From: Nitrospirota bacterium
GTDB taxonomy: Bacteria; Nitrospirota; Thermodesulfovibrionia; SZUA-242
Assembly: GCA_016212095.1 (NCBI GenBank)
Contig: JACRHH010000010.1
Coordinates: 62,001 to 126,000, forward strand
Direction: 5' to 3'
Length of the DNA stretch: 64,000 nt
Position numbers and translations under genes: made by a program. This document shows, in pieces, positions 53,994 to 64,000 of the stretch (position 1 is the stretch's first letter; each line of letters starts with the position of its first letter). The notes under the pieces are model-generated. The model saw only the letters and a program-made list of their open reading frames with translations, was not told the DNA's origin and did no database searches.

Positions 53994-54022
53994 TTGTCAT
54001 GCCCTTGTTTGTGAGATATGAT
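53994..54022 (+). promoter_or_regulatory. Candidate sigma70 promoter of the corrinoid operon
   Basis: TTGTCA (53994-53999) and TATGAT (54017-54022) are separated by exactly 17 nt, 28 nt upstream of the ATG at 54051. A strong GGAGGAGG ribosome site precedes the ATG. The promoter lies back to back with the TATAAT of the divergent AddB-like gene (53980-53975), so a regulator here could affect both. Confidence 0.6.
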
Positions 54023-54050: not shown

Positions 54051-55772
54051 ATGCCGGTGCTTCGGGTAAATCAGGCAGGAGTTGAGCGCAGCATATCCCT
54101 TACACCGGGCCTCAGTCTGCGCGAAACACTTCATCGCGCGAATGTTCACCTGCGTTCAACATGCGGCGGCGCGGGCGTCTGCGGACGCTGTCGCGTTCTG
54201 ATTACCTACGGCAGGACAAACGCGCCAACCGCAAGGGAAACCGCCCGCATCTCTCCGGATGATCTTGCCCGCGGCGTCCGGCTGGCCTGTCAGGTTCGGC
54301 CAGAACATGACATCGGCATAAACACTCAGGTTCGGCCAGAACATGACATCGGCATAAACACTCAGGTTCGGCCAGAACATGACATCGGCATAAACACTCA
54401 GGTTCGGCCAGAACATGACATCGGCATAACAGTTCAGGCTGACGTCTACCCCAGCCTTTCAGGCCCGGCAGGTCACTGGCGCAGCCTTGCTGACGATGAA
54501 TACGCTCCAGTGGACATCAGTCCCATGCCGGATGCGCCGCCATACGGAGCCGCCGTCGATATCGGAAGCACGCAGATTCGCGTCTCCATATGGGACATGC
54601 GCAGCGGGCGGCGCATCGCCGGACGCATCGGCCTTAATCCTCAGTCGTACTTCGGCGCAGATATTCTCACGCGGCTGGCGGCTGCCGCCGAATCGCCGGA
54701 TAACGCGCGCTTGATCCGCATGGCGGCGCGGGAGGCTGTCGGCGAGGCGCTTCAAGACATGGCCCAAGCGCACGGCTTGAATCTCCGGGAGGTCGGGCAG
54801 GTGGTTATCGTAGGCAACACCGCAATGCTGGCCCTTCTGTCCGGACGGAATCACGGGCTTTTGCTGAACCCGGACAACTGGGAGCGCACCATCGATTGCA
54901 GTCCGGACGACACTCCGGCGCTGCGCGAGCTTTGGGGCGTTGCGGAAAGCGCCATTATCGATATTGTCCAACCGGTTGCCGGTTTCGTCGGTTCCGATCT
55001 TCTTGCCGACATTATTGCGACAAAACTTGCTGAAGGCCCGGACAGTGCGCTGTTGATCGATTTCGGCACGAATTCCGAGATTGCGCTCTGGGACGGCAGG
55101 GAAATACTGGTTGCATCTACCGCCGGCGGCCCCGCCTTTGAAGGCGGCGGAATCGGCTGCGGGATGCCTGCCGAACCTGGCGCGATCTTTCGCGTGGAAC
55201 AGGATGAGGCGTCAGGCGCATTTCACCATGAAACAATCGGCGGCGGAGAGCCGGAAGGCATTTGCGGATCGGGGCTGGTGGATATTCTCGCCTGCCTGAT
55301 CAGGTCGGGCGAGCTGCGGGAAAACGGAAAGTTTTTGCATCATCACGCAGGCGGAAGGCTTCAGATCGTCATAGGGAGAACCGATATGGTTCTTACGACG
55401 CAGGACATCGATGCATTACAGCGCGCGAAGGCGGCTATCGCCGCTGCAACAACGCGCCTTATGAAACTGGCCGGGATGCATCCTGAAAAACTGCGCCGGG
55501 TCTGCGTTTGCGGGGCGTTTGGACGTTATCTGGATGTCCGGAACGCGCAGTTTATCGGCCTGCTTCCCGGCATTGCTGATGATACGAGGGTGGAACATGG
55601 AGGCAATTCCGCGCTTGCCGGTTGCGAAGCATTGCTGTTCGCTTCGGACAGAGCCGCCGTCCTGCGTTCGGTTGCCGGCAAGGCAAATCATTACAACATG
55701 TCCACGGATACGGATTTCGAGGAACTCTTTATCGACAGCCTTTTCCTGAGGCCGATGCGATGGCCAATGTGA
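54051..55772 (+). CDS. RACo-like reductive activator of corrinoid proteins (DUF4445)
   Basis: 573 residues. The N-terminal [2Fe-2S] ferredoxin domain has Cys at 38, 44, 47 and 80 (STCGGAGVCGRC, RLAC). A linker made of four 12-residue repeats QVRPEHDIGINT (residues 81-128) follows. From about residue 160 an ASKHA ATPase-like domain begins with AAVDIGSTQIRVSI, then LLIDFGTNSEIAL and GICGSGLVDIL. Such proteins use ATP to reduce Co(II) corrinoid to Co(I) in methyltransferase systems. The partner corrinoid protein and methyltransferase follow directly. GGAGGAGG precedes the ATG. Confidence 0.9.
   Translation: MPVLRVNQAGVERSISLTPGLSLRETLHRANVHLRSTCGGAGVCGRCRVLITYGRTNAPTARETARISPDDLARGVRLACQVRPEHDIGINTQVRPEHDIGINTQVRPEHDIGINTQVRPEHDIGITVQADVYPSLSGPAGHWRSLADDEYAPVDISPMPDAPPYGAAVDIGSTQIRVSIWDMRSGRRIAGRIGLNPQSYFGADILTRLAAAAESPDNARLIRMAAREAVGEALQDMAQAHGLNLREVGQVVIVGNTAMLALLSGRNHGLLLNPDNWERTIDCSPDDTPALRELWGVAESAIIDIVQPVAGFVGSDLLADIIATKLAEGPDSALLIDFGTNSEIALWDGREILVASTAGGPAFEGGGIGCGMPAEPGAIFRVEQDEASGAFHHETIGGGEPEGICGSGLVDILACLIRSGELRENGKFLHHHAGGRLQIVIGRTDMVLTTQDIDALQRAKAAIAAATTRLMKLAGMHPEKLRRVCVCGAFGRYLDVRNAQFIGLLPGIADDTRVEHGGNSALAGCEALLFASDRAAVLRSVAGKANHYNMSTDTDFEELFIDSLFLRPMRWPM
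54291..54434 (+). repeat. 36-bp in-frame tandem repeat, four units
   Basis: Three perfect 36-bp units (54291, 54327 and 54363) begin caggttcggccagaacatga, and a fourth (54399) diverges only in its last few bases. Each encodes QVRPEHDIGINT. The fourth unit, ending GITV, probably represents the ancestral single copy, because related proteins have only one such segment after the last ferredoxin Cys. The perfect identity indicates recent expansion. Confidence 0.92.
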
Positions 55773-55797
55773 TTGGATGACACCTGAAGGAGGTTAT

Positions 55798-56463
55798 ATG
55801 CTGGAAGATGTAATCACCGCCTACAACGAGGCTGTTTTCGACACCGACCGTGAAAGGGCGCTCAAGGTGATCCATGACGCTGTTGACCGGGGCGTTTCTC
55901 CGGAAGATGTCGTATTCAAGGTTGTCATTCCGGCCATCGAGCAGATGATCAAGTCCATCAGCGAGAGCTTCGACGCCAATCTCGCCCAGCACTTCATGAC
56001 CTCGCAGATAGCGGCGGAAGTGACCGAGGAGATGCTTGCCAGGTTCAGGAAGGCCCCGGAAGTCGTCGGGCATATAGTCATAGGCACGGCGCAGGGCGAT
56101 CTGCACTCGCTTGGAAAGAGAATCGTCATCGGCTGCCTGAAGTCGCTGATGATAGACGTTACCGACCTCGGCGTAAATGTGCCGCCGGAGAAATTCGTGG
56201 ATGAAGCCGTGGCCCGCAACGCCCAGGTCATCGGCATATCGGCCATGATGGTTCATACGGCCAGGGGTGAAAACGGCTGCATCATGGTGCGGGAGCTCCT
56301 CCGGAAGCGCGGCCTTGAGGACAGGATAAAGATAATCGTGGGCGGCGCGCCCTACCGCTACGATCTTGAGCTGTACAAAACAGTCGGGGCCGATGCCAGC
56401 GCCGATGACGGCATCACGGCGGGCAGGGTGATTGCCGGCCTCATCAAGGAGGTGCGGAGATGA
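55798..56463 (+). CDS. Corrinoid (methyl-B12) protein
   Basis: 221 residues from MLEDVITAYNEAVFDTD. An N-terminal helical cap (methyltransferase-associated B12-binding 2) is followed by the cobalamin domain with DLHSLG at residues 101-106, the DXHXXG motif whose His replaces the lower ligand of cobalt. The GGAPYRYD segment near the C-terminus binds the nucleotide tail. AAGGAGG lies just upstream of the ATG at 55798, ruling out the short extension. It accepts a methyl group and passes it to the UroD-type enzyme encoded next, and it would be reactivated by the RACo-like protein. Confidence 0.92.
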   Translation: MLEDVITAYNEAVFDTDRERALKVIHDAVDRGVSPEDVVFKVVIPAIEQMIKSISESFDANLAQHFMTSQIAAEVTEEMLARFRKAPEVVGHIVIGTAQGDLHSLGKRIVIGCLKSLMIDVTDLGVNVPPEKFVDEAVARNAQVIGISAMMVHTARGENGCIMVRELLRKRGLEDRIKIIVGGAPYRYDLELYKTVGADASADDGITAGRVIAGLIKEVRR

Positions 56464-57506
56464 TCACTGGAATGGACAGGCTTGCCGCCGCGATACAGGG
56501 GAAAAAGTCCGACCGGATTCCGGTATTCTGCAACCTCATCGATCAGGGAGCCAAAGAGCTTGGGATGCCGCTGAAGGAGTACTATTCAAACGGCGAGAAT
56601 GTGGCCGAGGCCCAGCTCAAGATGCGTGAAAGGTTCGGCTACGACAACGTATGGAGTCTTTTCTACGTCGGCAAGGAAGCCGAACTGCTTGGCTGCAAGG
56701 AGCTTATCTACGCCAAGGACGGCCCGCCGAACGTGGCCGATTTCGTCATCAAAACCCACGACGACATTCACAGGCTTGAGGTTCCGGACGACATATCCGC
56801 GCATCCGGCCTTTCAGGAAACGCTTAAATGCCTGCGCATCCTGAAAAGCGAGGTCGGCGGAAAGCAGGCGATCTGCGCGTATGTGACCGCCTCCATGACG
56901 CTTCCGGCCCTGCTCATGGGCATGGACAGGTGGATGGAGCTCTTCATGCTGGGGCCGGCCTCGGTTCGTGACGAACTGCTTGAAAAATGCTCGGATTTTT
57001 TCAGGAAGGAGATCACGGCCTACCGCAATGCCGGGGCCGATGTCTGCGTCTATGCCAATGCCTTCGGCTCCACCGACTTTGTTCCGATGAGGCTGTTCCG
57101 GGAGCTGTCGCTTCCGCAGATGGAGAAGGATCTGAAGCCGGTCGGGATCGACGGCGTTGTCTACTACTGCGGCGGCGCGCGGATGAACGCCGTGCTCGAA
57201 CAGGTGATAGACCGGCTTGGAATAGGCGCTTATTACCTGAGCCCGCTTGACAATATTTCCGAAGGCAAGAAAATCATTGGAAACCGCGCCCTGACCTGCG
57301 GGGTGATAAACGACATCATGCTGATCGGCTGGACAATGCAGGAGGTAAGAGACGAGGTTCGGCGGATGCTTGACGCCGGAATGCCGGGCGGAAAGTTCCT
57401 CTTCGGAACCCTTGTGATGCCGTACAACATACCGGAAGAGAACATCAGGGCAATGCTTGAAACCGCCTATGAATACGGCGCGTGCGTAGAGGAGGCCACA
57501 TCATGA
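56460..57506 (+). CDS. UroD-family methylcobamide methyltransferase, atypical
   Basis: 348-residue uroporphyrinogen decarboxylase-fold protein, starting MITGMDRLAAAIQGKKSDRI like MtaA/MtbA methyltransferases. In MtaA the zinc ligands are in HxC and a distal Cys. Here the first motif is YYCGG (Tyr236 and Cys237, His lost), and the distal region GTLVMPYNIPEEN has Thr317 instead of Cys. Classical thiol activation by zinc is therefore doubtful, and the acceptor or donor may not be a thiol. It overlaps the corrinoid gene by 4 nt and the DUF1638 gene by 4 nt. The substrate is unknown. Confidence 0.85.
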   Translation: MITGMDRLAAAIQGKKSDRIPVFCNLIDQGAKELGMPLKEYYSNGENVAEAQLKMRERFGYDNVWSLFYVGKEAELLGCKELIYAKDGPPNVADFVIKTHDDIHRLEVPDDISAHPAFQETLKCLRILKSEVGGKQAICAYVTASMTLPALLMGMDRWMELFMLGPASVRDELLEKCSDFFRKEITAYRNAGADVCVYANAFGSTDFVPMRLFRELSLPQMEKDLKPVGIDGVVYYCGGARMNAVLEQVIDRLGIGAYYLSPLDNISEGKKIIGNRALTCGVINDIMLIGWTMQEVRDEVRRMLDAGMPGGKFLFGTLVMPYNIPEENIRAMLETAYEYGACVEEATS

Positions 57507-58090
57507 CCGGAAACCATATGCTTCTTGTTGGATGCGGCATCCTGAAAAACGAGATCAGGCATCTCATAGAGGAAAACCACTGGCCTCTCGACACGTATTT
57601 TCTGGATTCCGCCCTTCACATAGACTTCGAGGCGCTGTCGCTGAGCCTGAAATCGGCACTTGCCGCCCACGAAGACCGGAACATTATTGTGTTTTACGGC
57701 TGCTGCCATCCGCTCATGGAGAAGATGCTGGAAGACGCCGGAACCATCAGAACCGTGGGGCAGAACTGCGTTGACATGCTTCTTGGCAATGAGATATTCA
57801 CGGAAGAGCTGTCGAAGGGCGCGTTCTTCCTTCTTGAAGACTGGGCGCGGCGCTGGGAGCAGATAAGCGAAAAAACCTTCGGGAAACACAGGGCGGTGAT
57901 GCGGGAGATTTTCCGGGGCGACCGGAAGTACATGCTCGCCCTTACCACGCCGTGTTCCGGCGACTTCAGGGCCGAGGCCGAGGCGGCGGCCTCGGCTGCG
58001 GGGCTGCCGTTAAGATGGATGGAGGTTTCGCTCGACCATTTAAAGGCGGTTATCGAAACGGCGTTGGCGCGGAAAAACGAGGCGCTTTAA
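57503..58090 (+). CDS. DUF1638 protein
   Basis: 195 residues from MTGNHMLLVGCGILKNEI with GAGGAGG before the ATG. It matches DUF1638: GCGILKNEI at the start, FYGCCHPLMEKML in the middle and TTPCSGDF towards the end. DUF1638 proteins accompany corrinoid methyltransferases in anaerobes and may be an additional methyltransferase component or cofactor-loading factor. The Cys residues in GCGI and YGCCH could bind metal, but their role is untested. It overlaps the UroD-type gene by 4 nt. Confidence 0.82.
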   Translation: MTGNHMLLVGCGILKNEIRHLIEENHWPLDTYFLDSALHIDFEALSLSLKSALAAHEDRNIIVFYGCCHPLMEKMLEDAGTIRTVGQNCVDMLLGNEIFTEELSKGAFFLLEDWARRWEQISEKTFGKHRAVMREIFRGDRKYMLALTTPCSGDFRAEAEAAASAAGLPLRWMEVSLDHLKAVIETALARKNEAL

Positions 58091-58110: not shown

Positions 58111-60171
58111 ATGAAAAAAGAGAAAATTCTTCTGGTTGACGACGACGAGCACAACCTCTGCATGTACGAGGCGGTGTTGAAGAACAACGGTTACGAGGTT
58201 GTTTGCGCCGGAAACGGGCTTGAGGCCATTGAAAGGTTGCGGGCAAATCATATCGACATGATTGTTTCCGATATCCTGATGCCGAAGATGGACGGTTTCA
58301 GTCTCTGCAGGGAGTGCAAAAAAGACGACAGGTTCAAGAAATTGCCTTTTATATTCATCTCTTCCGCATATCTCGAAGAGAAGGACGAAAATTTCGCCAT
58401 GAGCCTTGGCGTTGAACGTTTCATCAGAAGACCGATAGGGCTTGCCGAGTTCATCCGTGTGATCGAGGACGTTATCAAAAAGCACCGCGCAGGCGCTCCT
58501 GAAGGAAAGGAAGCCCCAACAATGGAGGAAATGTCCTGGCTGGCAGAATACAATGAGCGTCTGCGGATCATGCTTGAGCAGAAGGTGGAGTTGCTGGAGC
58601 GGGAGATTGGCGACCGCAAGCTGGCGGAGGAGGCGCTCAGGGAGTCGGAACTGACATTCAGATCCATTTTCGACGGCGCGAACGACGGAATACTGCTGGC
58701 GGACAGGGAGACGAAGAAATTCCATGTCGGCAATAGAGCGGTTTGCAGGCTGCTTGGTTATGAGCCGGAGGAAATAGTGAATCTGGGCGTTGCCGATATA
58801 CATCCGGCGGAACATCTCCACTACGTCATCGAGCAGTTCGAAAAGCAGGCAAGGGGGGAAATCACGCTGGCCAAGGATATTCCCGTGAAAAGCAAGGATG
58901 GGAGTATTTCGTATGCCGACATCAGTTCCGGCCCGATAACGCTTGGCGGAAGGGTGTACCTTATGGGGGTATTCAGGGACATCACCGAACGCAAGCGGGC
59001 CGAGGAAGAGCGGGCGCGCCTGCAGGAGCAACTTCGCCAGTCCCAGAAGCTGGAGGGGATAGGCCAGCTCGCAGGCGGCATCGCCCACGATTTCAACAAT
59101 ATCCTCAATACAATCATAGGCTTTGCTTCCCTCGTGCAGATGACACTGCCCGATGACAGTCCGCTCATGGAGAACATTAACGAGGTGATTGCCGCCGGTA
59201 ATCGCGGCTCGGCGCTAACCCGGCAGATACTCGCCTTCAGCAGGAAACAGGCGCTGGATGTGAAGGCGGTGAATCTGAACGAGATCATACAAAGCATCGA
59301 TAAGATGCTCCGACGGCTGATACGCGAGGACATTCAGATAGAATTTGTTCTGTCCGACACGCCGTTAACGGTAATCGCCGATGCCAGCCAGATAGACCAG
59401 ATACTTGTCAATCTGGCCGCAAACGCGCGGGATGGCATGACGGAAGGCGGCGAGTTAACCATCAGCACCTCGTTGGAAGACATTGGCAGCGATTTCATAA
59501 GCGTCCACGGTTTTGGAACTGCCGGCAGGTACGCGCTCATAACAGTGTCGGACACCGGAACCGGCATGGATGAAACGACGAAAGAGAGAATATTCGAGCC
59601 TTTTTTTACCACCAAGGAGTCGGGCAAGGGAACGGGGCTTGGCCTTTCAGTGGTGTACGGCATTGTTAAGCAGCATAACGGATTTATCGTGGTTTACAGC
59701 GAACCGGAAAAAGGCACGACATTCAAAATATATTTGCCTTTCATCGCCGGAGAGGCAGAGAAGGAGTTGACGTCCGCGGCAGTCCATATTCAGGGCGGCC
59801 CGGAAACGATACTTCTGGCCGATGACAGCGAGAGCATAATAAATTATCTGACCGAAATGCTTGAGCGGTTCGGCTATGCGGTTATCACTGCAAAAGACGG
59901 CAATGAAGCGGTCGGCAAATTCAGGGAACACGCAAGCGAAATCAAGCTTCTGGTCATGGATGTTCTCATGCCTTACAAGGGCGGCAAGGAGGCGTATGAC
60001 GAGATAAAAAGGATCAGGCCGGACATGAAGGCGGTATTCATGAGCGGCCATTCCTCGGACGATATCGCGGGCAAGCGAATCGTCGAGGAGGGCCATGAGC
60101 TCATATCGAAGCCGTTCAAGCCCGACGAATTGCTCAGGAAGGTAAGGGACGTCCTGAACGGGAGTTTGTAA
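58111..60171 (+). CDS. Response regulator-PAS-histidine kinase-receiver hybrid
   Basis: 686 residues from MKKEKILLVDDDEHN. Receiver 1 has MIVSDILMPKMDG with its Asp; a coiled coil follows. The PAS domain has FRSIFDGANDGILLADRE and RDITERKRAEEER. The HisKA domain has GGIAHDFNNILNTIIGF, and the HATPase has [18 protein letters not shown]. Receiver 2 has LLADDSESIINYL and LLVMDVLMPYKGG. No transmembrane segment or output domain is present. It starts 20 nt after DUF1638 and its stop overlaps the next kinase start, so it may belong to the corrinoid transcription unit. The signal is unknown. Confidence 0.88.
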   Translation: MKKEKILLVDDDEHNLCMYEAVLKNNGYEVVCAGNGLEAIERLRANHIDMIVSDILMPKMDGFSLCRECKKDDRFKKLPFIFISSAYLEEKDENFAMSLGVERFIRRPIGLAEFIRVIEDVIKKHRAGAPEGKEAPTMEEMSWLAEYNERLRIMLEQKVELLEREIGDRKLAEEALRESELTFRSIFDGANDGILLADRETKKFHVGNRAVCRLLGYEPEEIVNLGVADIHPAEHLHYVIEQFEKQARGEITLAKDIPVKSKDGSISYADISSGPITLGGRVYLMGVFRDITERKRAEEERARLQEQLRQSQKLEGIGQLAGGIAHDFNNILNTIIGFASLVQMTLPDDSPLMENINEVIAAGNRGSALTRQILAFSRKQALDVKAVNLNEIIQSIDKMLRRLIREDIQIEFVLSDTPLTVIADASQIDQILVNLAANARDGMTEGGELTISTSLEDIGSDFISVHGFGTAGRYALITVSDTGTGMDETTKERIFEPFFTTKESGKGTGLGLSVVYGIVKQHNGFIVVYSEPEKGTTFKIYLPFIAGEAEKELTSAAVHIQGGPETILLADDSESIINYLTEMLERFGYAVITAKDGNEAVGKFREHASEIKLLVMDVLMPYKGGKEAYDEIKRIRPDMKAVFMSGHSSDDIAGKRIVEEGHELISKPFKPDELLRKVRDVLNGSL

Positions 60172-61673
60172 TGCCGGAAATTACGGCGGCATCCGGCGGC
60201 GAAACAGCCCGGCTTGAGGCGCGAGCCAGAAAACTGGCAAGGGAGAAGTCGTTTCTCCAGTTGTCGCTCACCCTGATGAACAGGCTGAGCGCCGTGCCGG
60301 GCCTGGAAAACACCGTTGGAACCATGCTGGAGATAGTGCTCGACAGCATCGGCGGCGCGAATGTCATCGTTTACTACTTCATCGATGACGATATTCACTG
60401 CGCCGACGTTTTCGGCGGGAAAAAGCAGCTCGACCGTATCGACGACGATCTGGTGAACAGGGCGCTCGAAACGCGGGAGTTCGTCGAGATTGCACACGCC
60501 TTCAGCGACACGAAAATGCTCACACCCGAATTCACCAGCGCGTCATCCTGCGCTATACCCCTTCTGGTTGGCCCGGACATCATCGGCATTCTGAAGCTGG
60601 AAGGCATGTTCATGGCCGTCAGCGAGGTTCGCGCGCATTTCCAGCCTTTTTTCAACTATGCCGCCCTCGTCCTTAAAAATGAAATATCGGGCCATACAAA
60701 GCTCAAAAAGGCATATGACCAGTTGAGCGAAACAAACGCCGCCCTGACCGACGAGATCGTGAAACACCGTGAAACCGAGGCAAGACTGCGCGATTACTCC
60801 GACGCCCTTGCCGAAAGCCATGAAAAGCTGCAACGCGCCTACAACGACCTCAAGGATGCCCAGACGCGCCTTCTTCAGCAGGACAAGATGGCGTCAATAG
60901 GCCAGCTTGCCGCCGGAGTGGCCCACGAGATCAACAACCCCATGGCCTTCATCATCAGCAACCTATCAAGCCTCGGAAAGTATGTGGAAAAACTTGCCGC
61001 GTACATGGACGAAGCCGAGAAGCTTCTGGCCGAACAGACGCCAGCGCTCCTGGAAACACTGGAGAGGGAGCGAAAACGGTACAAGATTGACCGCATTCGG
61101 GGCGATCTGCCGGAACTGCTTGCCGAGTCTTTGGACGGTGCTGCCAGGGTTCGCCGGATCGTGCAGGATCTTAAGAGCTTTTCGAGGGTGGACAGGGCGG
61201 AATGCTCCAGCGAGGACATGAATCAGGCGATGGAAAGCACGCTCTCAATCGCCTGGAACGAGATAAAGTACAAGGCGACAGTCATAAAGGAATACGGTCA
61301 GTTGCCGCCTGTCTTGTGCAACCCCGGACAGATAAACCAGGTTTTCCTCAATATCCTGATAAACGCGGCTCATGCCATCGAAACCAGGGGCGAGATACGC
61401 ATAAGAACATGGGCTGACGGGGAATCCGTGCATGTGGAAATTGGCGACACCGGGCGCGGCATTCCGCAGGAGAGCATGAAACGGATATTCGATCCGTTCT
61501 TCACAACCAAGGAGGTCGGCAAGGGAACCGGGCTGGGCCTTGCCATCGCCTACGACATCATCGTGAACAAGCATGGCGGACGGATCGACGTGAAAAGCGA
61601 GGAAGGCACGGGGACAACCTTCATGGTTACCCTGCCGCTTGTGAAGCCGGGATGCGTCAAGACGAACGGCTGA
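60171..61673 (+). CDS. GAF-domain sensor histidine kinase
   Basis: 500 residues. A short N-terminal helix is followed by a GAF-like domain at about residues 35-170, then a coiled-coil linker ([16 protein letters not shown]). The HisKA segment [16 protein letters not shown] places the phospho-His at 252. The HATPase_c domain ends with [21 protein letters not shown]. No receiver is attached. Its N-terminal half is clearly paralogous to the next kinase ([18 protein letters not shown] against IIVYYFIDSAIHYADAFG). The start codon shares one base with the upstream stop. Cytoplasmic; ligand unknown. Confidence 0.87.
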
Positions 61674-61694: not shown

Positions 61695-64000
61695 ATGTCC
61701 GAAGAACGAATCACAAAACTCGAAGAACGCGTGAGAAAGCTGGCGATGGACAAGTCTTATCTCCAGCTTGTAATCCATATGATGCAGAAGCTCAGCGCCG
61801 CTCCGGGCCTTGAGAACACCATCGAAGTCATGCTTCGGCACGTTATGGATGTCATCGGCGGCTCGAACATAATCGTCTATTATTTCATCGACAGCGCCAT
61901 CCATTACGCGGATGCCTTCGGCATGCGAAAAACGCTGGATGCCGTTGATGACGTCCATGTGAAAAAGGTGCTTCAAACCCGCGAGTTCATCGCATACGAG
62001 CACGACTTCAGCGATACCATGATGAAGACGCCGGAGTTTTCGAAGGCATGGACGTGGATTGTTCCGCTCAAGGTGGGCGACGAAATGGTTGGCGTCTTCA
62101 AGATGGAGAGCCTTTCCATCGGCACGCGGGAGATGGAGCCTTACCTTCCGGCTTTCTTCAGTTACGCCGCCCTGCTGCTGAAAAACGAAATACTTGGGCA
62201 TACCAGGCTAAAACAGGCATACGACAGGCTGAACGAGACAAATGCCGAACTTACGAGCGAAATTATCGAGAAGAAGCGGGTTGAAAACGAACTTCTTTCT
62301 GCCCGCGATGAGCTGGAAAAACGGGTGATCGAGCGGACGACAGAACTGCGGAGCGCGAACGAACGTCTGCATGATGAACTTGCCGAACGCAAGCGGGCCG
62401 AGGATGCTCTGAACAAGACCATGAGGGAAGTCCACGACCTGTATAACCATGCGCCATGCGGATACCATTCCCTGAATGCTGACGGCATATTTGTACGGAT
62501 CAACGACACCGAGCTTGAATGGCTCGGATACAAGCGCGAAGAAGTCCTCGGCAAGCTTGCATTCCCGGATGTAATAACTCCATCGAGCCTGGATCTGTTC
62601 CGCCGGAGTTTTCCGGTCTTCGTTGAACGCGGATGGATAAATGATCTGGAGTTTGAGCTAAAACGTAAAGACGGCTCGGTCATGAACGTTCTTCTCAGCG
62701 CCACGGCGATAAAAGACGCCGACGGAAAGTTTGTAATGAGCAGGTCAACAGTGTACGACATCACGCCGCGAAAACAGGCGGAAATCGCGCTCCGCCGCAG
62801 CGAGGAGTTTGTAAAGAACATCCTTGAAACGGTTGACAACGGCTTCATCGTCGTTGACCGGTCGTTCCGGATAATATCCGCCAACAGGGCGTATCTGGAA
62901 ACGGTCGGCAAATCGCTGGAAGATGTCATCGGAAAACGTTGCCATGAAATATCGCACCGCAGCGACACGCCATGCAGCGAGACCGGTTGCGACTGCCCTG
63001 TAATGAAGACATTCGCGACCGGTGAGCCACATTCGTCGTTGCATGTCCATCTGGACAGCGAAGGCACGCAACTGTTTGTGGAAACAAAGTCGTTCCCGGT
63101 GAAGGACGAGACGGGAGCGGTTGTTTCCGCGATAGAAGTCATTGCCGACATCACGGAGAAAAAGCGGCTTGAAGACCAGCTCCTCCATGCGCAGAAGATG
63201 GAGGCCGTCGGCAGGCTTGCGGGCGGAATTGCCCACGATTTCAACAACATCCTTAACGTGGTTATAGGCTACGGCAACCTCATGGAGATGACCATTCCCG
63301 AAGGCGACCCATCGCTGCCGTATCTGAGGGAAATAATTTCAGCCGCCGAAAAGGCCGCGAACCTTACGCAGGGGCTTCTGATCTTCAGCAGGAAACAGGT
63401 TACCGACCTCAAACCCATAAGCGTCAACGATCTGGTAAGCGGCATGAGGAAGATGCTTTTTAGAATCATCGGCGAGGACATCGAGACCGTTATCAATACG
63501 GCGGACAATCCCCTCACCGTCATGGCCGATTTCGGCCAGATGGAACAGGTGCTCATGAACTTCGCAACCAATGCGCGAGACGCCATGCCAAGCGGCGGCG
63601 CCTTGACAATCGAAACCTCGTCCGTGGAAATGGACTCCGAATTCATTCACAGCCACGGCTATGGAAAACCTGGGCAGTACGCGCTCATATCGGTCTCCGA
63701 CACCGGAACCGGCATGGACGAAAAAACGACATGCAGAATCTTCGAACCGTTCTTCACCACAAAGGACATCGGGAAGGGAACCGGCCTTGGGCTTTCGATA
63801 GTCTATGGAATAGTTAAACAGCACAGGGGATATATCAACTGTTACAGCGAACCGGGCATCGGCACGACGTTCAAGGTCTATCTCCCGTTGATTGACGAAA
63901 AGTATCGGGATGAGCGGCATGTGGAAAAAAGCCCGATAACCGGCGGAAACGAGACCATTTTACTTGCGGAAGACAACGCCGCACTCAGAACGCTTACAAA
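61695..64000 (+). CDS. GAF-PAS-PAS hybrid histidine kinase, partial at window end
   Basis: At least 768 residues, running off the window. GGAGAGG precedes the ATG. Order: a GAF-like domain (residues 30-165) similar to that of the upstream kinase; a long coiled coil (LEKRVIERTTELRSANERL); PAS 1 (DLYNHAPCGYHSLNADG); PAS 2 (ILETVDNGFIVVDRSFR) with a CSETGCDC-like cysteine stretch; HisKA (GGIAHDFNNILNVVIGYG); HATPase_c ([18 protein letters not shown]); and the start of a receiver (ILLAEDNAALRTL). It is probably the third member of a co-transcribed kinase set. Confidence 0.88.
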   Translation, partial: MSEERITKLEERVRKLAMDKSYLQLVIHMMQKLSAAPGLENTIEVMLRHVMDVIGGSNIIVYYFIDSAIHYADAFGMRKTLDAVDDVHVKKVLQTREFIAYEHDFSDTMMKTPEFSKAWTWIVPLKVGDEMVGVFKMESLSIGTREMEPYLPAFFSYAALLLKNEILGHTRLKQAYDRLNETNAELTSEIIEKKRVENELLSARDELEKRVIERTTELRSANERLHDELAERKRAEDALNKTMREVHDLYNHAPCGYHSLNADGIFVRINDTELEWLGYKREEVLGKLAFPDVITPSSLDLFRRSFPVFVERGWINDLEFELKRKDGSVMNVLLSATAIKDADGKFVMSRSTVYDITPRKQAEIALRRSEEFVKNILETVDNGFIVVDRSFRIISANRAYLETVGKSLEDVIGKRCHEISHRSDTPCSETGCDCPVMKTFATGEPHSSLHVHLDSEGTQLFVETKSFPVKDETGAVVSAIEVIADITEKKRLEDQLLHAQKMEAVGRLAGGIAHDFNNILNVVIGYGNLMEMTIPEGDPSLPYLREIISAAEKAANLTQGLLIFSRKQVTDLKPISVNDLVSGMRKMLFRIIGEDIETVINTADNPLTVMADFGQMEQVLMNFATNARDAMPSGGALTIETSSVEMDSEFIHSHGYGKPGQYALISVSDTGTGMDEKTTCRIFEPFFTTKDIGKGTGLGLSIVYGIVKQHRGYINCYSEPGIGTTFKVYLPLIDEKYRDERHVEKSPITGGNETILLAEDNAALRTLT

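Follow-up and report, generated by a model that had tools for sequence, protein, structure and literature searches.

Corrinoid methyltransferases are known from methanogenesis, acetogenesis, and methionine synthesis, and corrinoid-based sensors are known as light receptors. The operon described here lies in a 64,000-nucleotide stretch of DNA (the window; positions 62,001 to 126,000, forward strand, of contig JACRHH010000010.1, assembly GCA_016212095.1) from a Nitrospirota bacterium, and encodes a RACo-type activator, a corrinoid protein (CP), a protein with the uroporphyrinogen decarboxylase (UroD) fold, and a DUF1638 protein, followed by three histidine kinases, all on one strand. Among the closest described systems, the chloromethane methyltransferase CdmB of Acetobacterium has the UroD fold with no zinc in its crystal, so that this fold can work zinc-free (PMC13222342). 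Type 1 mlp clusters contain several UroD paralogues, nearly all of them His-Cys-Cys, and are linked to sulfur and selenium genes (PMC10418091). Previous studies connect DUF1638 and RACo-like proteins with the reactivation of B12 for a split methionine synthase (PMC5764234) and with the use of methylated nitrogen compounds for growth (PMC12478193). A literature search, covering few subscription journals, returned no description of corrinoid proteins coupled in this way to diguanylate cyclases or sensor kinases.

We propose that the operon is a corrinoid methyl-transfer module that serves as the input device of signal transduction, an explanation to which, taken whole, we assign a probability of roughly 0.7. 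All of the evidence is comparative. An earlier note on this DNA had read positions 54051–58090 as a corrinoid methyl-transfer operon with an open substrate. Those coordinates end mid-operon, as three same-strand histidine kinases continue past 58090, and a methyl-catabolic reading is probably wrong: the corrinoid set heads a kinase operon, and most relatives have it upstream of, or fused with, kinases or cyclases.

Distribution of the Cassette and Linkage to Signaling Proteins

Domain searches sampled one genome per species, and the scan returned 48 loci from about ten phyla, most with UroD orthologues of 49–83% identity and three with distant UroD relatives (24–28%). Some of the metagenome-assembled genome (MAG) titles may be mis-binned; near-identical cassettes and flanks occur in MAGs titled Bacteroidales and Alphaproteobacteria (L048/L049), one of which is probably mis-binned. 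The UroD orthologues sit in sets of CP and UroD, with or without DUF1638 and RACo, usually followed by a protein with a GAF-like domain and varied outputs. When neighbors were clustered across 49 loci, few families recurred: histidine kinases (40/49), UroD, CP, DUF1638, and RACo, and after these receiver-HD proteins, receivers, and chemotaxis proteins. A receiver-HD (HD-GYP-like) protein stands beside the cassette at L070:643-1695 and at nine other loci, and chemotaxis receptors recur in Geobacter-type loci; together these add cyclic-di-GMP and chemotaxis to the outputs.

In 33 of 49 loci, the protein encoded immediately downstream of UroD or DUF1638 has one and the same N-terminal GAF-like domain of 200 residues, and it continues variously into HisKA/HATPase, GGDEF, or long PAS arrays. 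This domain is nearly exclusive to the cassette. Within a sample of ~342 Nitrospirota genomes it occurs in exactly the four that have a UroD orthologue, with all six copies at the UroD locus and none elsewhere in those genomes; the chance of this four-genome overlap would be ~2 in a billion (1 / C(342,4)), assuming independence and ignoring phylogeny. Another 40 genomes with a UroD relative (up to 7.7 Mb) include 31 with the GAF-like domain, at 1–3 copies each and mostly at the UroD locus. Across 141 genomes of the Geobacter order there are 42 copies, with CP-UroD-DUF1638 directly upstream in nearly all flanks read; exceptions are one copy ~14 kb from the cassette (G451), one with the cassette on another contig (L157), and the four L158-L161 copies described below. 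The cassette carriers include Geobacter sp. OR-1 (L091), which can be cultured.

Where at least 3 kb of sequence lies downstream of the UroD gene, a same-strand kinase ATPase or GGDEF domain is encoded within 6 kb for 58 of 71 genes; the remaining 13 comprise four zinc-keeping controls (see below), seven followed by a long or cut-off gene that begins with the GAF-like domain, and two without any recognized output. For this count the window was joined to its contig 2 kb out of place beyond base 64000, which does not alter the numbers. Sensor kinases that take the place of an absent GAF-like domain are ethylene-receptor-like (L071, L074), hemerythrin (L075), or PAS (L072, L081) kinases. In the Gallionellaceae/Nitrosomonadales loci, an ethylene-receptor-like ETR1_N domain forms the N-terminus of the kinase that follows the cassette (L071:9650-11551, L074:4277-5112).

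DUF1638 itself is fused in a single reading frame to histidine kinases (10 loci), GGDEF (3), and PilZ, a cyclic-di-GMP receptor domain (1). Three genomes (L162, L163, L164) encode a DUF1638-GAF-like-kinase core in one frame. In the second of three UroD clades, DUF1638 is fused to kinases in L044, L176-L180, and L182 (with a DUF1638 score just below the cut-off in L182) and to GGDEF in L045, L090, and L092; the PilZ fusion is at L043:1222-2343, in a short flank that contains no UroD gene. Third-clade loci (L165, L181, L187, L188) encode a GAF or PAS kinase after DUF1638. Conserved inputs with exchangeable outputs, a near-exclusive GAF-like domain, and the fusion of DUF1638 with outputs of three kinds together argue for a sensory module. 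We regard the coupling of the cassette to signaling as very likely on these gene arrangements, and the recurrence of the same set, wired and sometimes fused to signaling proteins, in dozens of unrelated bacteria probably points to chemical sensing and not to metabolism.

Several observations weigh against a sensory module of this composition. Four divergent GAF-like copies in the Geobacter order (L158-L161; 162–179 bits) have no cassette in the flanks examined, and two cassettes (L069 and the second copy of L181) are without a recognized signaling gene. The GAF label derives from weak Pfam matches only, and profile comparisons among the GAF-like families, or between these and GAF, were not significant. 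The GAF reference set was small and may contain one misread row (L067), with no bearing on the counts. RACo adjoins the cassette in only about one-third of loci. DUF1638 is absent from about a dozen cassettes, in which the GAF-like domain comes directly after UroD, and it is thus not the only relay. Separately, the genomes of L158-L161 have a clade-2 UroD on another contig.

Loss of the Zinc Triad from the UroD-Fold Protein

The UroD-fold protein (56460..57506, + strand; Pfam URO-D, 168 bits) has an AlphaFold2 model with a predicted local distance difference test score of 94.6, and its closest solved fold is MtaA (PDB 4ay8/4ay7). It scores 109.6 bits against the MtaA/CmuA family model TIGR01463 (cut-off 235.4), and lower still against the MtaA and MtbA models. 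In place of the MtaA His-x-Cys it has Tyr235-Tyr-Cys237, and Thr317 lies near the distal Cys position; this ligand comparison bears out the earlier note, which had seen YYC for HxC and Thr for the distal Cys. Across 43 orthologues, the first ligand position is always Tyr or Phe and the distal Cys is present in none; the second position holds Cys in 34 orthologues and one of Val, Gly, and Asn in the other nine, so that the YYC Cys does not characterize the family. The motif reads His-x-Ala and His-x-Thr/Gly in two more UroD clades from similar loci, with the distal Cys again absent.

The earlier note had suggested comparing zinc ligands among genomes with the same gene set, and this comparison extends the loss well beyond one protein: the His-x-Cys…Cys triad is kept in none of 65 cassette UroD proteins (a count that leaves out the out-of-frame L173), vs. 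all six other UroD relatives from three loci (L185, L186, L093), a small control set, and MtaA. Since the triad is absent from the cassettes and kept in the controls, its loss is a property of this type of locus and not of one genome. A substitute zinc site shared by the UroD proteins was considered, for which C24, C139, and D28 are conserved in clade 1. These residues are absent from clade 2, so a substitute site common to all clades is unlikely, an argument that does not reach clade 1 alone. A zinc-free UroD protein would fit an enzyme or receptor that activates no thiol. The proposal that the methyl donor or acceptor is not a classical thiol fits the triad loss in all 65 proteins and to that extent stands. 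Two different cassettes, one with a UroD of clade 1 or 2 and one of clade 3, lie 5–10 kb apart in some genomes (L181, L165).

An Intact Corrinoid Site and Its Activator

The first gene of the operon (54051..55772, +) encodes an ATP-dependent reductive activator of RACo/RamA type that acts on the corrinoid protein, and in which the 2Fe-2S (Fer2), Raco_middle, and ASKHA C-terminal (RACo_C_ter, 220 bits) domains all score above the Pfam cut-offs, and the four ferredoxin-type Cys are present; these Cys were found in 16 of 18 RACo sequences. Within this gene, in frame and in the linker after the ferredoxin domain, Tandem Repeats Finder identified a perfect 36-base tandem repeat of 3.9 copies (54290..54429, +) that encodes QVRPEHDIGINT. 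The methyl-carrying CP (55798..56463, +; Pfam PF02310, 74.5 bits) comprises a B12-binding cap and a B12-binding domain with the DxHxxG and GG motifs of methyltransferase-type corrinoid proteins. Across 76 carrier proteins, the His and both Gly of the corrinoid-binding motif are invariant, and the Asp is kept in 75. The cassette has thus, to judge by its motifs, kept a reducible, methylatable cobalt while losing the thiol-activating zinc.

DUF1638 as a Candidate Reader

The DUF1638 protein (57503..58090, +, in an open reading frame from 57482; Pfam PF07796, 97.1 bits, cut-off 27) is the proposed reader of the CP. Three Cys are invariant in 58–59 of 59 relatives, fused or unfused, because of which a metal or thiol function is possible. 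A fold search with DUF1638 gave nothing at E ≤ 0.001, and no solved structures were found for it; the best fold matches (template modeling score ~0.44) were two-lobed Rossmann/periplasmic-binding folds, including the PrpR sensory domain, a hint only. The earlier note had considered that DUF1638 may supply the chemistry missing from the UroD protein. The invariant Cys allow this, but because of the cassettes that do without DUF1638 and its fusions to signaling outputs, a relay or reader role appears to fit better.

Proposed Mechanism and Alternatives

Given what is known of how UroD-type, CP, and RACo proteins react, the signal is probably a methyl donor. RACo would hold the cobalt of the carrier as Co(I), and the zinc-free UroD protein would bind a small, non-thiol methyl donor, such as a methoxy or halomethyl compound. 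Passage of the donor methyl group to Co(I) would change the state of the carrier, which would be read by DUF1638, where present, and by the GAF-like domain of the following proteins; the readout would then pass to histidine kinases in this operon and to diguanylate cyclases in relatives. We infer the methyl transfer, its donor, and the direction from carrier through DUF1638 and GAF-like domain to output. Sensing by actual methyl transfer has, in our estimate, an even chance of being correct. More tentatively, and with slightly less than even odds, the cassettes may represent a widespread class of bacterial sensor that uses complete corrinoid methyl transfer as its detection chemistry, in which donor-methylated Co(I) is read by DUF1638 and GAF-like domains and relayed by phosphorylation or cyclic-di-GMP, and in which at least three UroD clades are tuned to different donors.

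The nearest alternative, which we consider improbable, is that the module senses the redox state of cobalt or oxygen: it would report Co(I) vs. Co(II) in the carrier, with UroD only as a scaffold or shield and no methyl donor. Loss of the zinc site from UroD with retention of the corrinoid site and activator would suit such a sensor, as would the many carriers that live at oxic-anoxic borders and the one cassette that feeds a hemerythrin kinase. However, the UroD barrel is strongly conserved across about ten phyla (the 49–83% identity given above), and its three clades differ in pocket residues, which suggests a specific ligand. Less likely again is catabolic or salvage methyl transfer under ordinary regulators, in which UroD, as a substrate-specific zinc-free methyltransferase, would load the CP, the methyl group would be passed on by an enzyme encoded elsewhere, and the kinases would merely regulate. 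In favor of this, known catabolic systems also use CP, UroD, and RACo, CdmB functions zinc-free (PMC13222342), a sensor kinase is encoded next to the MtaA/CmuA-type protein of the mec cassette (PMC9768040), and AcsE-like and CFeSP-like genes on another contig of the host genome provide a folate acceptor route. Yet no second methyltransferase, transporter, or DNA-binding regulator was found among the operon genes, and none recurs across the 49 loci; the outputs include GGDEF and single receivers, and not a conserved transcription factor; DUF1638 is fused to kinase, GGDEF, and PilZ outputs; and the cassette is carried by lithotrophs such as Mariprofundus.

Least probable, and to our minds very doubtful, is an ordinary methyltransferase of split chemistry, for which DUF1638 would supply the missing metal or thiol site. 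The three Cys invariant even in fused forms, and the need for DUF1638 and a RamA-like protein in the split methionine synthase (PMC5764234), are in its favor. It is difficult to reconcile with the cassettes that have no DUF1638 beside UroD, with a genome (G246) that has a UroD orthologue and no DUF1638 match, and with fusion partners that are signaling outputs.

If the methyl-transfer set does act as a signal input, vitamin B12 would gain a new use, and DUF1638, the function of which has been open since its linkage to B12 enzymes (PMC5764234), would gain a testable role. Such an input would also account for the zinc-less UroD proteins now annotated either as methyltransferases or as uroporphyrinogen decarboxylases, and would suggest that bacteria of groundwater and sediment can sense methyl compounds.

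Organization of the Operon and Host Genome

The four corrinoid genes named by the earlier note are all present at its coordinates, each with Pfam matches above the cut-off, and its claim that the operon has no separate MtxB-type gene is correct. Gene starts were assigned mechanically; the CP reading frame is open from 55777, and its start at 55798 is likely given the preceding GGAGG and the orthologues. Of the translational coupling that had been claimed for all four genes, ATGA overlaps are present for CP/UroD and UroD/DUF1638, whereas RACo and CP are ~25 nt apart with no overlap. The kinase genes follow on the same strand: a receiver-PAS-histidine kinase-receiver protein (58111..60171, +; Pfam), with an ATG start at 58111 read from the sequence and a reading frame open from 57952; a histidine kinase (60171..61673, +; Pfam HisKA and HATPase_c), which overlaps the preceding gene by one base and has the cassette-specific GAF-like domain as residues 1–200 (296 bits); and a second GAF-like kinase with GAF-like, PAS, HisKA, HATPase, and receiver domains (61695..64000, +), which ends 325 bases past the window (equivalent to 64325). 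All three kinases have the HisKA and HATPase_c domains of two-component signaling. The next sizeable gene, on the opposite strand, appears to encode a cytochrome-like protein.

A candidate sigma-70-like promoter, TTGTCA-17-TATGAT (53994..54022, +; 10/12 consensus), lies 28 bases upstream of the first gene. The common promoter suggested earlier therefore exists as a candidate site, but the number of such sites in the region is within chance (seven vs. 5.0 ± 2.4 in shuffled sequence), and neither promoter nor terminator counts in the region exceed chance. An Rfam search of 50–64 kb found no RNA element. The host genome carries three RACo-type genes, two pterin-binding genes (both on contigs other than that of the operon), and, besides the UroD gene of the operon, a second UroD gene, which has a HemE-like match (446 bits) and is taken for HemE. 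Contig C18 of the host (L023:3577-6737) contains genes that read, named by eye, as AcsE, AcsD, and AcsC of the acetyl-CoA pathway.

Comparison With Known Systems

The split methionine synthase systems (PMC5764234; PMC12478193) resemble the operon in that DUF1638, a RACo-like protein, and an MtgC-type corrinoid protein act together; unlike them, the operon is without a homocysteine or pterin methyltransferase, and its DUF1638 is tied to signaling proteins. PF00809 has no match on the contig of the operon and two in the host genome, on contigs C18 and C39; PF02574 was not searched genome-wide. The mlp clusters (PMC10418091) share MtaA-like UroD proteins, a corrinoid protein, a Ram/RACE activator, and the lack of a folate methyltransferase, but type 1 mlp requires at least two UroD paralogues (Mlp2, Mlp3), whereas the operon has a single UroD gene and links to kinases. 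CdmB is a zinc-free UroD-fold corrinoid methyltransferase, and the UroD protein of the operon likewise lacks the zinc triad; the sequence match between the two is weak (E 0.0005), and CdmB is paired with a folate methyltransferase, CdmA, that has no counterpart in the operon.

Corrinoid photoreceptors (CarH, photocobilins; PMC11796333) use a B12-binding protein for signaling, some with cyclase outputs, but the carrier of the operon is of the methyltransferase type, has UroD and RACo partners, and consists only of cap and B12-binding domains, with no output domain of its own and no fused DNA-binding domain as in CarH. The mec cassette (PMC9768040) combines an MtaA/CmuA-type protein, corrinoid proteins, and a sensor kinase, MecA, in one cluster; it differs in having MTII and a transporter, and MecA has a PocR domain, whereas no PocR or MEDS Pfam match was found in the kinases of the operon or in those scanned from relatives. 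The MtaA/CmuA family (TIGR01463; PDB 4ay7/4ay8) is the best match in both sequence and fold, and shares the corrinoid protein partner, but the UroD protein of the operon falls below the family cut-off, lacks the zinc triad, and is tied to signaling outputs.

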